A stretch of 42,021 nt of DNA from Candidatus Woesearchaeota archaeon (lineage in GTDB: Archaea > Nanobdellota > Nanobdellia > Woesearchaeales > GW2011-AR4): NCBI GenBank assembly GCA_016177615.1, contig JACOUX010000067.1, positions 1-42,021 of the forward strand, given 5' to 3'. The notes below the pieces were generated by a model that did not search any database, had not been told where the DNA came from, and saw only the letters and a program-made list of their open reading frames with translations. This document shows, in pieces, positions 2-42,021 of this stretch (within the stretch, counting starts at the first letter, position 1; each line of letters begins with the position of its first letter). The translations under genes and the position numbers were made by a program.

Positions 2-3000
2 TTTCTTGGCGGTACAGGTGCAAATGACTCATTGATAAGGGCAGGCAATATGACTGGATGGGCAAGAGTTGATGACGCTTTTGACATTTCCAATTACTCA
101 ACAGAATACGCCTCAACAGGCTACAAGTTAGCTAACTTCACCTCAAACTTGAATTCGCAGAATTCTTCATTATGGAACAGAAGCGTAACTAATGTTTATT
201 TAAGGTTTATTGATGATTTGGTTGGAATAGGAACAATAACGCCAGACAGCAGATTAACTATAAGAGGCACAGACGCAGATGCCAATCTTGCCGGGCAGCC
301 TGGGCTGCTGCACTTGAACATTACAGACTCTTATAATAGAACAGTAACTAATTTCATTACTTTAGACCATAATTTAAACAATCCTGCCAACTCAACTGGA
401 GGCATAGGAATAGGGATATTATTCAGGGCGATTAATAATGATTCTGAGCTGGTTAATGTTTCATTCATTAATGCAACTCTTGTAAATGCGATTAATGGAA
501 GTGAAGCATCTGCTTTATCATTCTATACAAGGGCTGCTAATGGTTTATTGACACCTAAATTAATATTGAATGGAAGCGATGTTCACATTGCTCCTACTGG
601 TGGAAGTGTCGGCATCGGGACTGCTGGGCCTAGCCGACCGCTTGATGTGGCTGGTTCTAGTTTTAATATGGCAATGATTCAGAGTTCAAATACAGGAGGC
701 GTAGCTCTTGAACTGGACGCAACTGCCACGGGCGGCAGAAATTATTTCATTCATTCCACGGCCGATGCGGCCGGACCGGGCGGCGGGAAGTTTATTATTC
801 GGGATACTGATGACAGCAGTGCGTCAAGATTGACGATAGACAGCACAGGCAACGTCGGCATCGGGACGACGGGGCCTCAAAACAAGCTGGAAGTGATTGG
901 AGCAGCAACATTCGCTGGCGGAGTAAATGCTTCTTCCTTGAATGTTACTGGCTTCAGCATTACAGATGACAGCTTGGTAACTGTTGTTGAGTTTGAACAA
1001 GAAAATAAAGAAAAAACGGAGTTCCACAATCAGGTACTTCAGACGGAACCCGCTGCCCTCACGGAACTAAACGATAAAAAATCATATAGATATATAAATT
1101 TTTCGGTTTTAAGTGATGAATTGAGCAAAGCTGGAGTGGCACAATCAGGTACTGCGGCGGATTCAGACTCCGCTGCCCTCACGGGCTTGAGGGTTCGAAA
1201 CTCTGTTTCAAAACCCAAGAGCGAAGTTCCCTCCTCCAGCGCTCAAAAAACATATTCTCTCAAAAAAATCCCAATCAAAGACATCAAGGCAGGCCAGTAT
1301 GCCTTATCCCTTGATGAATCCACAGGAAAATTAGTCCCAAGAAAAGTCAATGCTCTATTAGATCATGGCATTAAGCCGATTTATGAAATGGCAACAGAAG
1401 ATGGAAGAAGCATTAACACAACAGCAGAGCATCCTTATTTGGCAAGACTTTATGAGCGGGAATTGTGCGATAAATATGCCGGCAATGTGTGGAACAAAGA
1501 AGCTGACGAATTTAATGAATATTGCACAAGATGGGTAGAAGTTCAGGGACTAAACGTTAATAATGAAATTGCGACTCCTAAAACAGAAAATGATTTAGGC
1601 AGCGAAAAAAATCAAAATAAAGAAAAAATAAGCGGGTCCCACAACATGGTTATTGCTTCTGTGGAACCATCTGGTCTTCCACGACTAATAACTAATGAGA
1701 ATAATATACTATATAAATCTTTCGGTAATTCTGAATTTTTATCAGAAGGGCAAAGGCAGGGTCGCATAACCTGGTTATTGCGGATGGCTCAAGACCATCT
1801 GGTCTTCCACGACCATGCGGGTTCAAATTCCTTCCAAAAAGGAATGGAATTCCCGCCCCTGCCGTCCAATCCTGATATAACCTTTAAAAAGATAGTTTCC
1901 ATTAAACAGCTTCCGCCCCAGCACGTCTATGACTTAGCGATTGAAGGAACAAGAAACTTTATAGCCAATGATATAGTGGCGCATAATACTTACCTGGCAA
2001 CTAGTTCTGGGAATGTTGGCATTGGGACAATTGGACCGGACAGCACATTGCACATCAACAGCTCTTCTGTTACAGGCGCTCTGAAAATAACAAACGGCTC
2101 TGGCTCTAACTTTACTGCTTTCTTTGTGAATGGCAGTTCCGGCAGAGTCGGCATTGGATTGACTAATCCAAGTGATGCATTGCATGCTGTAGGGGCATTC
2201 AGGCTTTCATCATTTACCAGCAATAATCAAATTGCGCGGATTACGAAGTCCGGAGTAGACACAGGGCAAATCAGTCTGCAGAATGGCACATCAACCCAGG
2301 TGCTTATTGATACAGGCGGGGATTCATATTTTAATGGTGGAAATGTGGGAATCGGCCAAACAAGCCCAAATGTTACATTAGGAGTTTCTGGGAGGGCGAA
2401 CATTTCAGGATATTTGGAAGTTGGCGGCGGCTTAAATGTAAGCAATGGAATGAACGTTATTTCAGGCAACGTCGGCATCGGGACGACGAGTCCGGCGAAT
2501 AAACTCTGGGTGCAAGATACGAATACGCATATCGCTACTTTTTATCGCGCTGCCTCTGGACTGACCTATGCGCAATGGGTCAATGATGCGACAGGAACTA
2601 CGACTAATGATGGGCTATTGGTTGGCGTAGACGGAAGTGGTTTGGCGTTGATTAATAATCAAGAAAATACCGCGCTATACTTTTCTACAAATAATGCTGA
2701 ACGAGTTAGGATTGATAATACCGGCAACGTCGGCATTGGAACTGTAGCTCCAAACACGAAGCTGCATGTTAATATGGGCAGCGGCAGCGGGGTTGGCATA
2801 ACTGTCAATAGCTCCGGCCCGACAAATGTGGTTGGCTTGTTGGTATCAGGGGTAAACAATGCTGAAAATGCACAAATAAACGCGTCTTTAGGAACTGCTG
2901 GAGGCGCATTGGACGTAGGATTTGTAGGAACTGAAACATCTCATGGCTTCACACTAAGGACGAAAAATGCGAATAGAGTTCTCATAGATTCGGCAGGCAA

Positions 3001-6000
3001 TGTCGGCATCAACACGACAGTTCCTGCAAACACTTTAACAGTTCAGGGGACTTTGAATGTTACATCCAATCCAACAAGAAGTGGAGATTTGTTTGTAGCA
3101 AGTTCAGGCAACGTCGGCATCAACACGACAAATCCCGGAACTGCCCTGCAAGTAGTCGGAAGTATTCGTGTTAGTGAGCTGGATATTGTACCAAAACAAG
3201 TCGATTGGATAGCAAACACAGATTCTCGCATTTATACTTCGGCTGAGCCTGGCACTTATCCTTTTGCTGACACAGGAAACCTGATTCTTCAGCCACGGAC
3301 AGACAGCGCGCGGGATATTGTCTTTGCCTTGAATCTTGGCAGTACCACACCTGCTCCAGCTATGGTTATAAAAAGAACCACCGGCAACGTCGGCATCGGG
3401 ACGACGAGTCCGGGAAGGCTTTTAGAGGTTGCTGGCTCAATTAATGGCACACAGCTGAACATATCTGGAGCAGTCAATTTGGCTTATAACTCAGGCAATG
3501 TCGGCATTGGCACAACTTCGCCAAATCAAACGCTTGATGTCCAGGGCAGCGCCAATTTCGCCAATCAGATAATCGGCAATAATAACTTGACCATAAGGAA
3601 CGGAGCAAGCGCCTTCAGCAATACCAAAAGCGTTGTCAATCTCTACAAAAATATCGGCTCGGATGCCGCTAACACATGGTCCACTGGGGCGAGCGGCGGG
3701 AGAGCAAGAGACAGCTTTGTCAGTGTTCTTTACAACGGCAAGATATATTTCTGGGGAGGGCGAGATGGCAACTCCGCAGCCAACGCTCTCAATAGCACAG
3801 AAATCTACGATATAGCCACTGACTCATGGTCTAATGGCACAGCAAGCGCAACAAGCAAGACATATGCCGCTGGCGTAGCCTACAATGACGCTATATATAC
3901 CTGGGGCGGATCAGATATCAAGGGAAACGAAACCAGTCAGGTTATGATTTACAATATTACCAAAAACGTATGGACCAACGGCACAGCAGGAGGAAGAACA
4001 AGAGTATCTCATACTGCTACTCTTTACAACGGCAAGATATATTTCTGGGGAGGGGTTCTCAACGGCTCCATTTTGAACACCATGGATGTTTATGATATCA
4101 ACAGCAATTCCTGGTCTAATGGCACCTCAGGAGGAGCGGCAAGATATAGTCATGTTGCTGCTCTTTACAACAACAAGATTTATTTCTGGGGAGGGTGGAC
4201 AGCTACCTTTGATAGTACTAATCTTACTGATATCTACGACATCGCTAATGACTCGTGGTCTAATGGCACGCCAGGGGGCCTTGCAAGATTTTCATCTGCC
4301 TCTGCGCTGTACAACGGCAAGCTCTATATCTTTGGCGGAAGCGATGATGCAACAATTGATGCCGTAAACAGGCTTGATATTTACGATATTGCCAAGGATT
4401 CCTGGTCCCAAGGTGTTTCAGGAGGCACTGCCAGGGATTTTCTATACTCTACTGCACCTGTTTACAACGGCAGGATCTATTTTTGGGGCGGAATAAACAC
4501 AGCGGAAAACAGGATCAATAGCATGGACATCTTAGACATTGGCGATCGGCAAAGCTATTTGTCATTTTACGAGAATGGGGAAAACATGCTTTCGTTCAGG
4601 ACAGGCTCGAATATAAATCTTGATTATGGATTGCTAAGCATTACAGGAGGCAATCTTGGCGTAGGAACAACACATCCTAAAGCCAGGCTTCATGTCAATG
4701 ACTCTTCTGCAGTTGGATCACTTCTTGTTACAAATGTTTCAGGCACAGCAATATTTTTTGTTAATGGGAGCTCAGGCAAGGTCGGCATCGGGACGACGAG
4801 TCCGACCCAGAAACTTGAGATTAGCGGCGGGTCAGTGCTAATTCCAACTGGAGCAAAGTACCTGATTGGTGGCACGACCGAAGGCATCAGGGGCAGCGTG
4901 AACAGCTTTGTAGCTATCCAAACCAATGCTGCTGATCGCATCGTGGCGAATTATGGAGGTGCAATCCAGTTTCTAGATGAGTCTGCTAACGTGTTAATGC
5001 AAATCCAAAGCACCGGCAAGGTCGGCATCGGGGCAACATCTCCAAACGTCACATTCCATGTAAGCGGTGCTGCAAATGTATCTGGAAGATTAAGCTATGG
5101 GACTTTGGCAGCTAACTCTCCTCATTTCTTTGAAACCATAGGCAAGGCAGAGCCATTGTGCATAAAATCAAAAATTGGAAAATATGTGGGGTGCATGATT
5201 GATGAGAATTTTGAGTTTGTTTGCAGGATTGACGACAGGTGCAGCAGGAAGTATTTAGATGCAAGCCTTTCTGAGGAGATAGAGCATTTAAATAGAGAAA
5301 CACCAAATAATTTAGTTAATGAAAATAATTTAACAAATAATGCAGCCCCGGTAAGGGACAGCACTGACACAAGCGCAAGTGCTCCCAATGCCGAAATTGC
5401 CCAAATTAATGATAACGATTACAAAAAGCAAAAAATAGAAAGATTAAGCAAGCTCAAAAGCGGCATTAAAGAAAAGGAGGTAACTGTAAAGCAGGCAATT
5501 GTACAGTTGAAGCTTGAGCAATTAGGGCATGTTGACATTGATGCTATCGAAAGCGAGGAGGATGCAGTAGGATACACATCCAAAACTAAAAAAGCCAGAG
5601 AAGAGCAAGGCAATGTCGGCATAAACACAACAGTTCCTGCAAGAACATTAACTGTACAGGGAACATTAAATGTATCTAACCCAGGAACAAGCGGGCAATT
5701 ATTTATGGATTCGTCAGGCAGCGTCGGCATCGGCACGACGACACCAACTGAGGTTTTAAGCGTTAATGGCAATGTAAGCATAGAAGGCACCAACTGCCGC
5801 GATTCCGGTGGCTCTGCAACCTGCAACAACTTCGTTGACTTTGCGGAATTATTTGACTCCAGCGAACCAGTAGAAAGCGGCGACATAGTCATAATCTCAT
5901 TCGAAAACCCCCCTTCCAAGCCAACCGCAGGTTTCTCCCCCCAAAACCCTCAATCCACGAGCAAATCTTTCCAGAATTCGGTTGATGGCAAGTTCCAAAA

Positions 6001-6589
6001 CTCGGTTGATGCAAAATTCCAGAATCCGGTTGACAGCTCTTCCAAAATCCGGTTGACAGCTTTACAGAATCCGGTTGATGCAAGCCAAAATAATACCCAA
6101 AAAACCCCATTAATTTACAATACTGAAAGTAATGCCAATAATAATGAAAATTCAATTGAAAACCCTGCTCCAGATTTTGCCTCAGCATTCAAAGTCAAAA
6201 AATCCGCCAAACCCTATGACAGCAAAGTAATAGGAATTGTCTCAACCCAGCCAGCCATAGTAATAGAGGGCGGAAGAATAGTAGCCATGGGCGGCTGGAA
6301 GGGTCAAAACAACACTTTAAAGCCTGCAATCGCTTTAGCCGGAAGAGTCCCAGTAAAAGTCACAAATGAAAACGGGCCAATTCAAAAAGGCGATTTATTG
6401 ACAACCTCAAGCAAAGCTGGCTATGGGATGAAATTCTCGCTTTTAGACCCGGCAAACGCTAAAGATTTCAGCGAATTAAAAATGATGCTCAAGGAAAATG
6501 AGAACAGGAGAAACGCAGTGCTGGGAAAATCATTGGAAAACTGCGACCAGCAAGAATGCAAAATACTTGCATTTGTCTCAATGCAATAA
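2..6589 (+). CDS. Giant NVGIG-repeat surface protein with Hint domain, kelch repeats and tailspike-like C-terminus (5' partial)
   Basis: The frame is open at the left edge, so the TTG at 32 is probably not the start. The protein carries about twenty GNVGIGTTSP-type repeats, as in phage tail fibres and large archaeal or CPR surface proteins. A Hint (intein-like) domain occupies about 971-1987. Six kelch-like repeats with the pattern YNGKIYFWGG and DSWSNGT span about 3650-4540. A low-complexity, charged linker covers 5290-5600. The C-terminal domain (about 5780-6589; NCRDSGGSATCNNF, then AGRVPVKV and GDLLTTSSKAGYGMK) resembles the autoproteolytic Peptidase_G2/IMC domain of tailspikes; that assignment is from memory of the family. 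The role is inferred to be a cell-surface adhesin or fibre. Oddities: two tRNA genes lie within the frame, repeat codons are GC-rich compared with the surroundings, and partial C-terminal copies follow downstream. Confidence 0.85.
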   Translation, partial: FLGGTGANDSLIRAGNMTGWARVDDAFDISNYSTEYASTGYKLANFTSNLNSQNSSLWNRSVTNVYLRFIDDLVGIGTITPDSRLTIRGTDADANLAGQPGLLHLNITDSYNRTVTNFITLDHNLNNPANSTGGIGIGILFRAINNDSELVNVSFINATLVNAINGSEASALSFYTRAANGLLTPKLILNGSDVHIAPTGGSVGIGTAGPSRPLDVAGSSFNMAMIQSSNTGGVALELDATATGGRNYFIHSTADAAGPGGGKFIIRDTDDSSASRLTIDSTGNVGIGTTGPQNKLEVIGAATFAGGVNASSLNVTGFSITDDSLVTVVEFEQENKEKTEFHNQVLQTEPAALTELNDKKSYRYINFSVLSDELSKAGVAQSGTAADSDSAALTGLRVRNSVSKPKSEVPSSSAQKTYSLKKIPIKDIKAGQYALSLDESTGKLVPRKVNALLDHGIKPIYEMATEDGRSINTTAEHPYLARLYERELCDKYAGNVWNKEADEFNEYCTRWVEVQGLNVNNEIATPKTENDLGSEKNQNKEKISGSHNMVIASVEPSGLPRLITNENNILYKSFGNSEFLSEGQRQGRITWLLRMAQDHLVFHDHAGSNSFQKGMEFPPLPSNPDITFKKIVSIKQLPPQHVYDLAIEGTRNFIANDIVAHNTYLATSSGNVGIGTIGPDSTLHINSSSVTGALKITNGSGSNFTAFFVNGSSGRVGIGLTNPSDALHAVGAFRLSSFTSNNQIARITKSGVDTGQISLQNGTSTQVLIDTGGDSYFNGGNVGIGQTSPNVTLGVSGRANISGYLEVGGGLNVSNGMNVISGNVGIGTTSPANKLWVQDTNTHIATFYRAASGLTYAQWVNDATGTTTNDGLLVGVDGSGLALINNQENTALYFSTNNAERVRIDNTGNVGIGTVAPNTKLHVNMGSGSGVGITVNSSGPTNVVGLLVSGVNNAENAQINASLGTAGGALDVGFVGTETSHGFTLRTKNANRVLIDSAGNVGINTTVPANTLTVQGTLNVTSNPTRSGDLFVASSGNVGINTTNPGTALQVVGSIRVSELDIVPKQVDWIANTDSRIYTSAEPGTYPFADTGNLILQPRTDSARDIVFALNLGSTTPAPAMVIKRTTGNVGIGTTSPGRLLEVAGSINGTQLNISGAVNLAYNSGNVGIGTTSPNQTLDVQGSANFANQIIGNNNLTIRNGASAFSNTKSVVNLYKNIGSDAANTWSTGASGGRARDSFVSVLYNGKIYFWGGRDGNSAANALNSTEIYDIATDSWSNGTASATSKTYAAGVAYNDAIYTWGGSDIKGNETSQVMIYNITKNVWTNGTAGGRTRVSHTATLYNGKIYFWGGVLNGSILNTMDVYDINSNSWSNGTSGGAARYSHVAALYNNKIYFWGGWTATFDSTNLTDIYDIANDSWSNGTPGGLARFSSASALYNGKLYIFGGSDDATIDAVNRLDIYDIAKDSWSQGVSGGTARDFLYSTAPVYNGRIYFWGGINTAENRINSMDILDIGDRQSYLSFYENGENMLSFRTGSNINLDYGLLSITGGNLGVGTTHPKARLHVNDSSAVGSLLVTNVSGTAIFFVNGSSGKVGIGTTSPTQKLEISGGSVLIPTGAKYLIGGTTEGIRGSVNSFVAIQTNAADRIVANYGGAIQFLDESANVLMQIQSTGKVGIGATSPNVTFHVSGAANVSGRLSYGTLAANSPHFFETIGKAEPLCIKSKIGKYVGCMIDENFEFVCRIDDRCSRKYLDASLSEEIEHLNRETPNNLVNENNLTNNAAPVRDSTDTSASAPNAEIAQINDNDYKKQKIERLSKLKSGIKEKEVTVKQAIVQLKLEQLGHVDIDAIESEEDAVGYTSKTKKAREEQGNVGINTTVPARTLTVQGTLNVSNPGTSGQLFMDSSGSVGIGTTTPTEVLSVNGNVSIEGTNCRDSGGSATCNNFVDFAELFDSSEPVESGDIVIISFENPPSKPTAGFSPQNPQSTSKSFQNSVDGKFQNSVDAKFQNPVDSSSKIRLTALQNPVDASQNNTQKTPLIYNTESNANNNENSIENPAPDFASAFKVKKSAKPYDSKVIGIVSTQPAIVIEGGRIVAMGGWKGQNNTLKPAIALAGRVPVKVTNENGPIQKGDLLTTSSKAGYGMKFSLLDPANAKDFSELKMMLKENENRRNAVLGKSLENCDQQECKILAFVSMQ
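1017..1064 (+). pseudogene. Degenerate tRNA-Leu(CAG)-like 5' fragment
   Basis: GGAGT, CACAATCAGGTACT and CGCTGCCCTCACGG match the acceptor, D-arm and variable arm of the intact tRNA-Leu(CAG) that begins 113 bases downstream. The anticodon stem-loop is deleted and no T-arm follows. It is also translated as part of the giant ORF. Confidence 0.65.
1091..1107 (+). promoter_or_regulatory. Promoter of tRNA-Leu(CAG)
   Basis: TATATAAAT followed by TTTCGGT, ending 22 bases before the tRNA. The same TATAAA...TTTCGGT pair precedes the other two tRNA-Leu genes, which suggests a shared promoter copied with the tRNA unit. Confidence 0.55.
1130..1240 (+). tRNA. tRNA-Leu(CAG) with T-loop intron, inside the giant ORF
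   Basis: The acceptor stem GCTGGAG (1130-1136) pairs perfectly with CTCCAGC (1234-1240). The anticodon stem GCGGA/TCCGC encloses the loop TTCAGAC with anticodon CAG at 1164-1166. The class II variable arm is GCCC/GGGC (1175-1186). The T-stem GAGGG (1189-1193) pairs with CCCTC (1229-1233). Between TTCGAA (1194-1199) and the last T-loop base (T1228) lies a 28-nt intron. The discriminator is G1241, unusual for tRNA-Leu; CCA is not encoded. The gene reads through in frame as part of the giant protein, between the putative Hint nucleophile and block A. Confidence 0.85.
1200..1227 (+). other. BHB intron in the T-loop of tRNA-Leu(CAG)
   Basis: A four-pair central helix UUCG (1194-1197) with CGAA (1222-1225) is flanked by three-base bulges AAA (1198-1200) and GUU (1226-1228). 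The outer helix is the T-stem and the inner helix is CUCU/AGAG. Cutting after the second base of each bulge joins TTCGAA to T, restoring a normal seven-base T-loop. Confidence 0.85.
1634..1685 (+). pseudogene. Degenerate tRNA-Leu(CAA)-like 5' fragment
   Basis: GGGTC, TGGTTATTGC and CCATCTGGTCTTCCACGAC match the acceptor end, D-arm, anticodon-stem 3' side and variable arm of the intact tRNA-Leu(CAA) that starts 121 bases further on. The anticodon loop region is altered and the T-arm and 3' acceptor are absent. It is translated within the giant ORF. Confidence 0.65.
1712..1726 (+). promoter_or_regulatory. Promoter of tRNA-Leu(CAA)
   Basis: TATAAATCTTTCGGT, 28 bases upstream of the tRNA. It is the same TATAAA...TTTCGGT pair seen at the CAG and UAA loci. 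Confidence 0.55.
1755..1863 (+). tRNA. tRNA-Leu(CAA) with T-loop intron, inside the giant ORF
   Basis: The acceptor stem GGCAGGG (1755-1761) pairs perfectly with CCCTGCC (1857-1863). The D-stem is GCA/TGC. The anticodon stem GATGG/CCATC encloses CTCAAGA with anticodon CAA at 1790-1792. The long variable arm is TGGTC/GACCA (1800-1815). The T-stem GCGGG (1817-1821) pairs with CCCGC (1852-1856) once a 23-nt insert is removed. The discriminator is G1864. It lies in frame within the Hint domain just before its C-terminal blocks. Confidence 0.85.
1828..1850 (+). other. Intron in the T-loop of tRNA-Leu(CAA)
   Basis: The central helix UUCA (1822-1825) pairs with UGGA (1845-1848), with one G-U pair. 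It is flanked by bulges AAU (1826-1828) and AUU (1849-1851). Splicing restores the T-loop TTCAAAT closed by GCGGG/CCCGC. The inner part forms UUCC/GGAA but is less regular than in the CAG intron, so this is a relaxed BHB. Confidence 0.75.
3650..4545 (+). repeat. Six kelch-like repeats within the giant gene
   Basis: Each unit of about 48-50 residues has an YNGKIYFWGG-type strand, an IYDI strand and a Trp in D-SWSNGT. Six units suggest one beta-propeller, here placed between blocks of NVGIG repeats. Units are also similar at DNA level, for example tacaacggcaagatatattt at about 3732 and 4024. Confidence 0.75.
5341..5401 (+). repeat. Inverted GC-rich repeat pair in linker of giant gene
   Basis: A forward arm cggtaagggacagcact (5349-5365) and a reverse arm gctcccaatgccgaaattgc (from 5381) are related as inverted copies. 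The reverse arm is a variant of the reverse complement of the NVGIG-coding DNA core. Similar pairs occur at 7200-7257 and 10881-10966 in unrelated genes. Confidence 0.6.
5971..6078 (+). repeat. Tandem 22-24 bp repeats, five units
   Basis: The core (a/c)cca(g/a)aa(t/c)(t/c)cggttga recurs with cores at 5973, 5997, 6021, 6044 and 6066 (spacings 24, 24, 23, 22). The first three and the fifth units encode FQN(S/P)VD. The fourth is read in another frame as SKIRLTA, and the frame is regained because 23+22 is a multiple of three. The repeat is therefore kept as DNA rather than as peptide. Confidence 0.75.
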
Positions 6590-18633: not shown

Positions 18634-18693
18634 AAAATGGCCAAGAATGGCCCAAAAAACTGGACTTAAGCAATTAACGCTGAACCAATGACC
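18634..18693 (+). pseudogene. Degenerate tRNA-Leu(UAA)-like 5' fragment
   Basis: The stretch 18634-18670 aligns without gaps to 18733-18769 of the intact gene (about 26 of 37 bases, with tggcc and ctggacttaag identical). After a gap, cgctgaacca of the variable arm matches. The anticodon-stem 3' side, T-arm and 3' acceptor are missing. Most changes are towards A. Confidence 0.7.
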
Positions 18694-18708
18694 AATAATT
18701 GCAGATTC

Positions 18709-18726
18709 CTATAAATAACTTTCGGT
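18709..18726 (+). promoter_or_regulatory. TATA and TTTCGGT motif of tRNA-Leu(UAA)
   Basis: cTATAAATAACTTTCGGT, only three bases before the tRNA. The pair of motifs matches those before the CAG and CAA genes, but the leader is about 20 bases shorter here. Confidence 0.5.
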
Positions 18727-18729
18727 AAA

Positions 18730-18846
18730 GCCGGGATGGCTGAGTCTGGCCTAAAGCGCTGGACTTAAGATCCAGTTAGCGCTGAACCACAACGCTACGA
18801 GGGTTCAAATGCTAATGGGGAAGTTGCTGAAACTCCCTCTCCCGGC
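18730..18846 (+). tRNA. tRNA-Leu(UAA) with T-loop intron
   Basis: The acceptor stem GCCGGGA (18730-18736) pairs with TCCCGGC (18840-18846). The anticodon stem CTGGA/TCCAG encloses CTTAAGA, with anticodon TAA at 18766-18768. The variable arm is TAGCG/CGCTA. The T-stem GAGGG (18799-18803) pairs with CCCTC (18835-18839) after a 24-nt intron is removed. The discriminator is G18847; CCA is not encoded. Intron position and discriminator match the two tRNA-Leu genes at 1130 and 1755. Confidence 0.9.
18810..18833 (+). other. BHB intron in the T-loop of tRNA-Leu(UAA)
   Basis: The four-pair helix UUCA (18804-18807) with UGAA is flanked by bulges AAU (18808-18810) and ACU (18832-18834), with the T-stem as outer helix. 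Cutting after the second bulge base on each side gives TTCAAAT closed by GAGGG/CCCTC, a normal T-arm. The inner helix is short (GC/GC). Confidence 0.85.
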
Positions 18847-39665: not shown

Positions 39666-39809
39666 ATGAAGAAGCCAATAAGCGCTACAATTGATGAAGA
39701 TCTTATCTCATGGATTGAGAAAGAAGTAGGTGAAAATACAAGATACAGGAACAAGTCCCATCTTATTGAAACAGCGCTGGAGATCCTAAAAAAAGAGGCG
39801 AAAAAATAA
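39666..39809 (+). CDS. Ribbon-helix-helix regulator, 47 aa
   Basis: It encodes 47 aa: MKKPISATIDEDLISWIEKEV then YRNKSHLIETALEILKKEAKK. The short beta strand with I-A-T-I-D and two helices is a textbook RHH (CopG/Arc-type) domain. It likely represses its own operon through the palindromes upstream. Its stop overlaps the start of the secretion ATPase gene (TAATG), so it may control production of the pilus-like machine. Confidence 0.85.
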   Translation: MKKPISATIDEDLISWIEKEVGENTRYRNKSHLIETALEILKKEAKK

Positions 39810-42021
39810 TGGCATTATTCGGAGAATCAAAAAAGCCGTTCACATATGAGGTGCTAAGGGAAGGTGAAGAGGTCATTTTAATGGTGGACTTGGAGCAGTA
39901 CCCACACAGCCCTTCGCTTGAAGATGACTCAATATGCATGTCGCGTACAGTTGACATCCTCGCAGAAGCAGGAAATGTAACTAAAATAGTATACACCCAA
40001 AAAAGGAATTATGAATATGACTACAACCAGACTTTGCTTATTCAGGAGATAGCCCATCTTTACCTTCAGCTTGCAAAAAGAAAGGAAATCACAGGCTATG
40101 GCAATATGCTTTCAAGCCCTCAATGCTCAAGATGGGCCGGGAAATGGTATTCTTCTGTCCAGGACATCACAGGAGATTTGATGAAAAGGGACCCAATAGG
40201 GGCATTTGTCGAGCTGAAAAGAATGGCAAGGGACGAGAGGATAAGGATTGACAAGTCTGTTGATCCAAACTATCAAGAGTGCTCAAAAAAATATATTTCT
40301 GTCCTCCAGTACCTCATGGCGCTGATGGAAAAGACAAAGCTCATAGCCATGGCAAAGCCTTATCTTTCAGGCTATAAGATTGCAGAGCGCTCGGTTTACA
40401 GAAGAATATTCTCTCCAGACATAAGGCCTGATTTCATGTTCACAAAGCTGATGGCAAATTACCCTGCTGAGGGGGAAGAGATTGACAGCTATTTCGTTGA
40501 TAAGGATACAGAAGTGACAATCTTCCAGCTGCCAGATAATGTGCAGTACATGTACCACCTTGTGCCGCCAGAATTCAAGCTTAGCGAGGAAAAATATGAG
40601 ATTGTTGATACGGCAAGGAAAATAATGGCAGAGCACAAGCCTACAAGGCAGGAATTCATTGATCCGGAAAGGATGAGGCAGGTTTTCTACAACATTGGCT
40701 CGGACCTGATCGATGAGCTGGTTAATTACAGAAAGCTAAGCTTTACATCAGAGGAAATAGATGAAATGACAAAAATTCTAGTTAGGTATACTGTAGGGTT
40801 TGGGTTAATAGAAGTGCTCCTCCAGGATGAAAAAGTCCAGGATATAACAATAAACTCTCCTATGGGGGAAACGCCAATTTTCATAGTGCATCAGGACTAT
40901 GCTGATTGCATGACAAATATAGTTCCAACAATGCCTGAGTCTGAGTCATGGGCATCAAAGCTAAGGCTGATTTCAGGCAGGCCGCTTGATGAGGCAAACC
41001 CGATACTAGACACAGAGCTGAGCATTCCAGGTGCTAATGCAAGAATTGCAGTTGTAGCGCCTCCCTTAAACCCTACAGGGCTTGCATATGCTTTTAGAAG
41101 GCATAGGGACAAGCCATGGACTTTGCCTTTGTTCATCAAGAACAAGATGATGAACCCAATGGCAGCAGGAATCCTAAGTTTCATGATAGACGGCTCAAGG
41201 TCAATGCTTGTTGCAGGGACAAGAAGTGCAGGAAAGACGAGCTTATTAGGCGCTATGCTTGTTGAGCTTATGAGAAAATATCGCGTGATTACGATAGAAG
41301 ATAGTGTTACAGGAGACAGCAATATCTTTATCCAAAGGAACAACAAAATAGAAAAGACGACAATAGGCGCTTTGGTTGATGGCTTAATAAGCAAATATGG
41401 CAAATGGTATAATCTTACAGAGCATGAAGCCACAGGCAATCCGGAAAACATAAAAGTATTTGCAATGGACAAAAAAGGGAAAATAAAGCTTGCAGCAGTA
41501 AGCAAATTCATAAGGCACAAAGTCAAAAAGCCGATTTATAAAATCACCACAAGAACTGGAAGAACAATAAAAGTCACTGGCGACCATTCTCTTTTCGGAT
41601 TGGATTCAGATGCAAAAGTAGCGGAAGTTAAATCTAATGCGCTGAACGTCGGAGATCACATAGCAGTCCCAAGATTCACTCCAAATAATAACAAGCCAAT
41701 TAGGAGACTGCAAATGCTTGATGAATTATGCAAAATACCAAATGTATTTTTCCGTGGAGCATCAATAGAGGAATTAATTTCAAAATATAAAAATGAGATA
41801 AAACAACTCGGAAAATCCTCAGGATATGATAAGTCAACAATAAGAAGCTGGATTAAAAAAGGCTTCCTGCCGGGCGAAATAGTTTCATCTTTGGCAGATA
41901 GCGGCATACATGCAGGAAACGGAGTTTCGTTTTCTTATAATAACAGCCTTACAAAAATTCCGGCTAACATAGAGCTAAGCGAAGAATTTCTCACATTTAT
42001 AGGGCTTTGGATAGCTGACGG
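39809..42021 (+). CDS. GspE/TadA-type secretion or pilus ATPase with intein (3' partial)
   Basis: The frame is open to the right edge (737 codons). The host part covers residues 1-498, with an N-terminal domain typical of archaeal pilus or archaellum ATPases, VQDITINSP, FRRHRDKPWTLP and Walker A AGTRSAGKTS (470-478). At the Walker B region VITIED the host sequence breaks and an intein begins with Ser (position 41303). The ATPase would power assembly of type IV pilus-like filaments at the membrane. Its start overlaps the RHH gene stop. Confidence 0.9.
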   Translation, partial: MALFGESKKPFTYEVLREGEEVILMVDLEQYPHSPSLEDDSICMSRTVDILAEAGNVTKIVYTQKRNYEYDYNQTLLIQEIAHLYLQLAKRKEITGYGNMLSSPQCSRWAGKWYSSVQDITGDLMKRDPIGAFVELKRMARDERIRIDKSVDPNYQECSKKYISVLQYLMALMEKTKLIAMAKPYLSGYKIAERSVYRRIFSPDIRPDFMFTKLMANYPAEGEEIDSYFVDKDTEVTIFQLPDNVQYMYHLVPPEFKLSEEKYEIVDTARKIMAEHKPTRQEFIDPERMRQVFYNIGSDLIDELVNYRKLSFTSEEIDEMTKILVRYTVGFGLIEVLLQDEKVQDITINSPMGETPIFIVHQDYADCMTNIVPTMPESESWASKLRLISGRPLDEANPILDTELSIPGANARIAVVAPPLNPTGLAYAFRRHRDKPWTLPLFIKNKMMNPMAAGILSFMIDGSRSMLVAGTRSAGKTSLLGAMLVELMRKYRVITIEDSVTGDSNIFIQRNNKIEKTTIGALVDGLISKYGKWYNLTEHEATGNPENIKVFAMDKKGKIKLAAVSKFIRHKVKKPIYKITTRTGRTIKVTGDHSLFGLDSDAKVAEVKSNALNVGDHIAVPRFTPNNNKPIRRLQMLDELCKIPNVFFRGASIEELISKYKNEIKQLGKSSGYDKSTIRSWIKKGFLPGEIVSSLADSGIHAGNGVSFSYNNSLTKIPANIELSEEFLTFIGLWIAD
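41303..42021 (+). other. Intein with LAGLIDADG endonuclease in the ATPase (3' partial)
   Basis: SVTGDSNIFI opens the intein with a Ser nucleophile right after VITIED. Block B is present as TGRTIKVTGDHSLFG (H in the T-x-x-H motif), followed by LNVGDHIAVPR. An HTH-like segment (DKSTIRSWIKKGFLPGE) and the first LAGLIDADG-type motif FLTFIGLWIADG end at the window edge. The insertion at Walker B of a P-loop ATPase is a favoured intein site. Confidence 0.88.

Follow-up and report, generated by a model that had tools for sequence, protein, structure and literature searches.

The closest functional relatives of the RNA module proposed here are the type VIII toxin-antitoxins (PMC12737573). A mismatch between body and anticodon is known from the nev-tRNAs of nematodes: in these class II tRNAs the anticodon stands for one amino acid and the body for another, yet no mistranslation due to misacylated nev-tRNAs could be detected in C. 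elegans (PMC4300185). In Rickettsia, the palindromic elements (RPEs) are short inserts that leave the frame of the host gene intact and occupy tolerant places (PMC10969869).

The window analysed here is a stretch of 42,021 nucleotides from an archaeon (Candidatus Woesearchaeota) with a genome of 1.54 Mb, in which it forms contig C57. Two tRNA genes lie inside one open reading frame of this window, each preceded by a partial copy of itself that we read as a predicted antisense RNA gene; a tRNA gene together with such a copy is called a unit below. The findings point to an undescribed RNA-based module and, possibly, to a deliberate misreading of the genetic code.

Results

Host reading frame and intein

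2..6589, + strand: giant ORF, intein host; 2195 codons, 5' end beyond the contig, NVGIGTTSP repeats and kelch repeats
956..1987, + strand: intein in the giant ORF; PF14890 at 2.6e-19, TIGR01443, TIGR01445

The earlier note had reported two complete tRNA genes in an uninterrupted reading frame, and this was borne out: ORF 2-6589 contains no stop across 1017-1864, where both units are located. The inserts had been assigned to loops between conserved Hint blocks, which was likewise found to be correct, with the domain now specified as an intein. Block A (SITDDSLV at 956), block B (TTAEHPYL) and block F/G (VYDLAIEGTRNFIANDIVAHN) are present, Thr+1 is at 1988, and the extein junction reads ..NVTGF/S....HN/TYLATSSG, slashes marking the boundaries. 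TIGR01443 scored over its cut-off and TIGR01445 slightly under it. Blocks A, B, F and G together with Ser1, HN and Thr+1 thus identify an intein by sequence, and splicing is predicted. The intein is inserted in a repeated module, intein-free versions of which (NASSINTTG-NAYFATSSG) are visible in the homologous L028 protein. Unit 1 occupies the loop after block A and unit 2 the usual homing endonuclease site of inteins. Since the host is an intein, the residues encoded by the tRNAs should leave with it, if it is spliced. A viral origin of this intein was considered and rejected, as no relative was found in IMG/VR.

A second intein (41300-41900, PF14890 at 6.9e-16) is present in ORF 39809-42019, which is cut by the window end and also shows a weak match to a T2SSE-type ATPase. 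In both inteins of genome G016, near 4070 and 11990 of L077, block B is missing and the frame shifts at one common position (..GRSI), as though they had decayed or were spliced at the RNA level.

Two tRNA genes in the open frame

1130..1240, + strand: tRNA 1; class II, serine-type body, anticodon CAG, G73 at 1241, 28-nt T-loop insert
1755..1863, + strand: tRNA 2; class II, serine-type body, anticodon CAA, G73 at 1864, 23-nt T-loop insert

In both tRNAs the acceptor stem (7/7), the anticodon stem (5/5) and the T-stem (5/5) are fully paired. General tRNA finders nevertheless scored them poorly or truncated them because of the 23-28 nt insert in the T-loop: ARAGORN reported the first tRNA alone, with a wrong 3' end, and the Rfam tRNA model matched tRNA 1 and tRNA 2 weakly (17.9 and 20.5 bits). 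A covariance model of this tRNA class gave 87 bits for tRNA 1 and 98.8 bits for tRNA 2; both belonged to its training sequences, and therefore independent support comes from the relatives.

The T-loop insert lies between TTCRAA and the 3' strand of the T-stem, as in other tRNAs of the lineage. Its position is conserved, and in tRNA 2 a near-perfect hairpin is predicted for it. As ordinary tRNAs of the lineage commonly carry T-loop inserts too, those of the units are probably introns, whose excision is assumed.

The other two frames contain 5 and 5 stops in unit 1 and 4 and 7 in unit 2. Across all embedded units, off-frame stops number 1-8 and the host frame is open in 11/11, whereas only 3 of the 96 unit-frames of 32 stand-alone units are free of stops. 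Embedding was defined through a long ORF, so that the 11/11 holds partly by definition; what is informative is that RNA pairing is fully conserved although the frame is open. When the 11 embedded tRNAs of nine genomes were aligned, 97.6% of the cells were paired, and no copy had a mismatch in the acceptor, D-arm, anticodon or T-arm helix (100% pairing), as expected of tRNA genes. Compensatory change was seen in 16 of 23 pairs, a result equalled by none of 500 shuffles. Selection on the RNAs, which the earlier note had deduced from the stems of the two window tRNAs, is thus supported by covariation; conserved pairing with compensatory change beside an open host frame indicates that RNA and frame are selected together. 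We have little doubt about this anatomy, a tRNA under selection carried as in-frame intein cargo.

Serine-type bodies with other anticodons

Both window tRNAs had been called tRNA-Leu. The anticodons CAG and CAA are indeed those of leucine; the bodies are serine-type, in G73 as well as in the D-arm and the variable arm, so that of the features of a tRNA-Leu (A73, a Leu-type body and the anticodon) only the last was found. The nearest body was that of tRNA-Ser in 38 of 49 units, including both of the window (0.78 against 0.66 and 0.74 against 0.62). G73 is present in 48 of the 49, as in all 34 true tRNA-Ser, whereas all nine true tRNA-Leu have A73. A serine-type identity of the window tRNAs is therefore probable on these features.

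The anticodons of the units comprise CAA, TAA, CAG, GAG, TAG and AAG for leucine, along with GAC, GAT, GAA and GTC; those of Val, Ile, Phe or Asp account for 10 of 54. A35 is found in at least 52 of the 54, which corresponds to codons of hydrophobic residues. SerRS ignores the anticodon and recognizes the long variable arm and G73. From this, insertion of serine at hydrophobic codons is predicted. Identity could be mixed, since the D-arms of the TAA units are closer to those of tRNA-Leu; an embedded unit of G016 has A73. Three embedded GAG copies have C33 in place of U33 and may be poor decoders.

The units might instead be working Leu, Val, Ile and Phe isoacceptors that are charged according to their anticodons, with the antisense RNA tuning their supply and the nesting in ORFs a by-product of a compact genome. 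The majority of leucine anticodons, the Leu-like D-arms of the TAA units and the perfect pairing agree with such a role. The near-universal G73 argues against it, and so do class II bodies bearing Val, Ile, Phe or Asp anticodons, the coexistence of ordinary tRNA-Leu for the same codons, and the antisense gene described below, which no ordinary tRNA-Ser or tRNA-Leu possesses. The genome of the window has separate A73 tRNA-Leu for UAA, GAG and UAG; consequently, at least part of the extra tRNA set is redundant, and the units cannot be the only tRNA-Leu of this genome. On balance we consider such decoding tRNAs rather unlikely and retain the serine-type reading.

Regarding the true tRNA-Leu, the tRNA of contig C17 is assigned to Leu-UAA with two introns rather than to Leu-CAG, on the basis of a CTTAAG element conserved in G001, G016 and G023. 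The true Leu(UAA) tRNAs of L133, L298, L301 and L307 seem to have two introns, which flank a conserved TGCGAAACTTAAG element.

Predicted antisense RNA genes beside the tRNAs

1003..1068, - strand: predicted antisense RNA gene 1, start at about 1068; complementary to tRNA 1, duplex of -80 kcal/mol
1091..1106, - strand: predicted promoter of antisense RNA 1; TATA TTTATATA at 1091-1098, BRE CCGAAAAA at 1099-1106
1615..1688, - strand: predicted antisense RNA gene 2; complementary to tRNA 2, duplex of about -80 kcal/mol
1710..1725, - strand: predicted promoter of antisense RNA 2; TATA at 1710-1717, BRE ACCGAAAGA at about 1718-1725
18637..18846, unit on both strands: stand-alone unit of the window; antisense RNA at about 18637-18688 (-), TATA centred at about 18714 (-), tRNA at 18730-18846 (+) with anticodon TAA and G73

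Upstream of each tRNA, after an A-rich stretch like AAATAAAGAAAAA, lies a partial tRNA copy that consists of the acceptor start, the D-arm, parts of the anticodon arm, and the variable arm. In the earlier note it had been described as a promoter and an upstream fragment; it is best read on the reverse strand, as an antisense RNA gene. In that direction a BRE (CGAAA) and a TATA element adjoin the tRNA, the start follows about 26 nt further on, and a hairpin and a T-tract close the gene. For antisense RNA 1 this end is the hairpin GTTCC..GGAAC with a T-tract (reverse complement of 1002-1016), and the T-tract of antisense RNA 2 is the reverse complement of 1612-1629. The predicted RNA is about 60 nt long; a stretch of about 45-65 nt is complementary to the tRNA of the unit, in its 5' half.

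The distance from the reverse TATA to the copy is mostly 24-28 nt over 40-odd units, whereas that from the TATA to the tRNA varies from 10 to 41 nt; a spacing of 25-26 nt recurs in three distant families of the order, beside Phe and Ile anticodons. An upstream copy (z>4) was detected in all 48 measurable units compared with 1 of 43 ordinary tRNA-Ser and tRNA-Leu, this lone positive being a false hit from a neighbouring tRNA. Pairing is specific as well: the mean predicted duplex is -68 kcal/mol with the own tRNA against -36 kcal/mol with others, and the own tRNA ranks first in 36 of 43 cases. No Rfam family matched the antisense RNA, and a weak tRNA-Sec match fell on tRNA 2 alone; inspection by eye of the listed antisense RNAs revealed no C/D-box motif. 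From promoter geometry and complementarity, we regard it as likely that the upstream copy is a divergent antisense RNA gene.

The copy could also be a feature of the sense strand, as the degenerate remainder of a tRNA tandem or as a pre-tRNA leader with a structure, in which case the units would be selfish in-frame inserts of the RPE kind. Copy and tRNA do share the same-strand orientation, a relative (L027) has undergone a deletion between the two copies, and frame-keeping insertion is known from RPEs (PMC10969869). A relic would not be expected to keep a fixed 26-nt spacing from TATA to copy, a reverse BRE and a terminal hairpin with a T-tract. The relic of a tandem tRNA copy was rejected as the main reading because of this fixed spacing and the confinement of the copy to mismatched tRNAs, and we judge the sense-strand explanation as a whole improbable compared with an antisense RNA gene.

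Antisense copies without a tRNA are present in ORFs of G008 and G011, as would be expected of an antitoxin. In stand-alone units a forward tRNA promoter was not clearly found. Ahead of the A-rich stretch, the stand-alone units L127 and L162-L167 have in common an element CACTGGACACTGGACAT..CGTGAA..TATA that may be the promoter of a sense precursor. Exceptions were seen in G058, where two class II G73 tRNAs with anticodons GAG and GAA (L267, L288) have no adjoining antisense copy. At about 490-620 of L027, unit 1 is cut down to the antisense copy and the 3' half of the tRNA through a deletion between direct repeats; the frame is broken just past the reduced unit, which makes it a natural decay product.

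Other cargo of the same sites

L028 5162-5753; L077 12053-12700; L078, L080 and L081; antisense: DUF433/DUF5615 pairs, with about 600 bases of open sense frame

The endonuclease site of the L028 intein and of both G016 inteins is occupied by antisense DUF433/DUF5615 gene pairs, which we take to be VapBC-like toxin-antitoxins. In G018, G008 and G002, giant proteins other than inteins have similar antisense pairs within their open frames. At the intein endonuclease site of L027 (959-1168, - strand) we noted an antisense ORF of 69 amino acids (MPKLVMTVKLGVNEAGMNV..), for which neither Pfam nor NCBIfam gave a match.

This company bears on a further explanation, in which the units serve as decoys for nucleases that cleave tRNA (of viral origin or of the PIN-toxin type), or as spares for the tRNAs lost to them, and the antisense RNA keeps the reserve until an attack. 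The PIN-like DUF5615 pairs co-occur with units in related inteins and ORFs, and T-loop inserts change the tRNA precursor; however, ordinary tRNAs of the lineage have such inserts as well, and serine bodies with non-serine anticodons are left unexplained. Decoys are therefore a quite improbable account of the units.

Recurrence and homologues without the unit

The class covariance model finds such units across the genus, the family and other families of the order. Eleven copies lie in long sense-strand ORFs of nine genomes; the upstream copy is in the same ORF for ten, while a contig end truncates the remaining one. The earlier note had raised an assembly error joining separate loci; as a general cause it is excluded because the same arrangement is present in several other genomes. 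Artefact or chance resemblance, which might be suspected of a metagenome assembly with a window that begins at a contig end, is practically ruled out by the same architecture in many independent assemblies, several families and eleven open frames, and by the compensatory changes.

The comparison with a homologue lacking the unit, by which insertion borders were to be found, was provided by the L028 intein. It has LSDGSKKKI in place of unit 1, the alignment being LVTLSDGSKKKIKDI in L028 against LVTVVEFEQ[unit 1]..LKKIPIKDI in the window. Likewise, a host protein of G003 and G009 carries the unit and a linker between ..EYVPAGFEI and ..TKIISINSNLKKGSKYVLSYKFDAP, where G010 and G030 have a short turn. 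Split alignments suggest that G035 and contig C9 of the same genome as the window are also without the unit. A DNA similarity search for unit 1 in relatives returned mostly AT-rich chance matches.

Units with class I tRNAs (GGGCGCGTAG..CGCGCTCA) were observed in frame in inteins and giant ORFs (L077 11464-11800; L078, with the same stretch in L035; L151; L259). Their anticodons are those of Val (CAC, GAC) and Ala (GGC), although the body is one and the same; a degenerate copy and then a reverse TATA come after the tRNA. They may represent the same module in a version with convergent antisense genes.

In the literature, searched with incomplete coverage and hence weak as evidence, nothing was found linking tRNA introns and Woesearchaeota except group I introns; an intein-nested toxin-antitoxin in DPANN was not found either, with the same reservation.

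Discussion

Proposed mechanism

From these results, a hypothesis regarding the function of the inserts may be put forward. Each insert would be an RNA module of two genes, one for a tRNA and a divergent one for an antisense RNA of about 60 nt, both presumably transcribed. SerRS would load serine on the class II G73 tRNA, in most cases serine-like, that bears a Leu (elsewhere Val, Ile or Phe) anticodon; hydrophobic codons would consequently receive serine, to the harm of the cell unless this is controlled. The antisense RNA would silence the tRNA by pairing with it or with its precursor. Such logic would be that of a type VIII (RNA/RNA) toxin-antitoxin or of a controlled-mistranslation switch. 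The modules, like the DUF433/DUF5615 pairs, would enter loops of giant surface-protein genes and the intein endonuclease site, and would persist in ORFs only as versions that keep the host frame open.

In our view the case for a type VIII-like cassette inserted in frame, in which an antisense RNA restrains a mischarging tRNA, is evenly balanced. That the cassette acts as a toxin-antitoxin we propose tentatively. With similar caution we suggest a new class of toxin-antitoxin, in which a mischarging tRNA is the toxin and a dedicated antisense RNA the antitoxin, and which, as an in-frame cassette in inteins and giant surface-protein genes of Woesearchaeota, might make the host gene hard to lose.

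If this is true, a single DNA stretch would be under three constraints at once, since its sense strand would have to maintain both a protein frame and a tRNA fold, and its opposite strand an antisense RNA gene. To the known ways in which a cell can poison translation or retune it would be added an identity-swapped tRNA held by its own antisense RNA, and whether archaea naturally use regulated mistranslation would become directly testable. The findings further suggest that nested addiction modules have landing sites in the inteins and the giant surface genes of this group.

Comparison with known systems

In the type VIII toxin-antitoxins (SdsR/RyeA, CreTA), as in the proposed module, toxin and antitoxin are both RNAs and translation is the target. 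The presumed toxin here differs in being a tRNA, one whose body and anticodon do not match, and its partner would be a true antisense RNA that needs no Cas proteins; we do not claim that the module belongs to type VIII. The mismatch itself is shared with nematode nev-tRNAs and with the Candida tRNA-Ser(CAG). Unlike these, the units are archaeal and serine-type, have many anticodons for hydrophobic codons and an antisense RNA gene of their own, and are partly nested in protein genes, with no known homology to either.

The comparison with RPEs that the earlier note had drawn applies to the frame-keeping insertion into coding genes, for which homologues without the insert exist, and fails for the palindrome: RPEs are palindromic repeats without cargo genes, whereas the units carry a selected tRNA and an antisense RNA gene, show no element-wide palindrome in sequence or folds, and yielded no mobility mechanism. 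With homing-endonuclease inteins they have in common the Hint/intein host, unit 2 lying at the normal site of the endonuclease domain. The endonuclease is, however, replaced by tRNA/antisense units or antisense DUF433/DUF5615 pairs, and a second unit is placed in the block-A loop. Finally, archaeal intron-containing tRNAs resemble the units in their T-loop inserts. At the borders of such an insert a canonical bulge-helix-bulge would be expected; the fold obtained for tRNA 2 shows the near-perfect hairpin.
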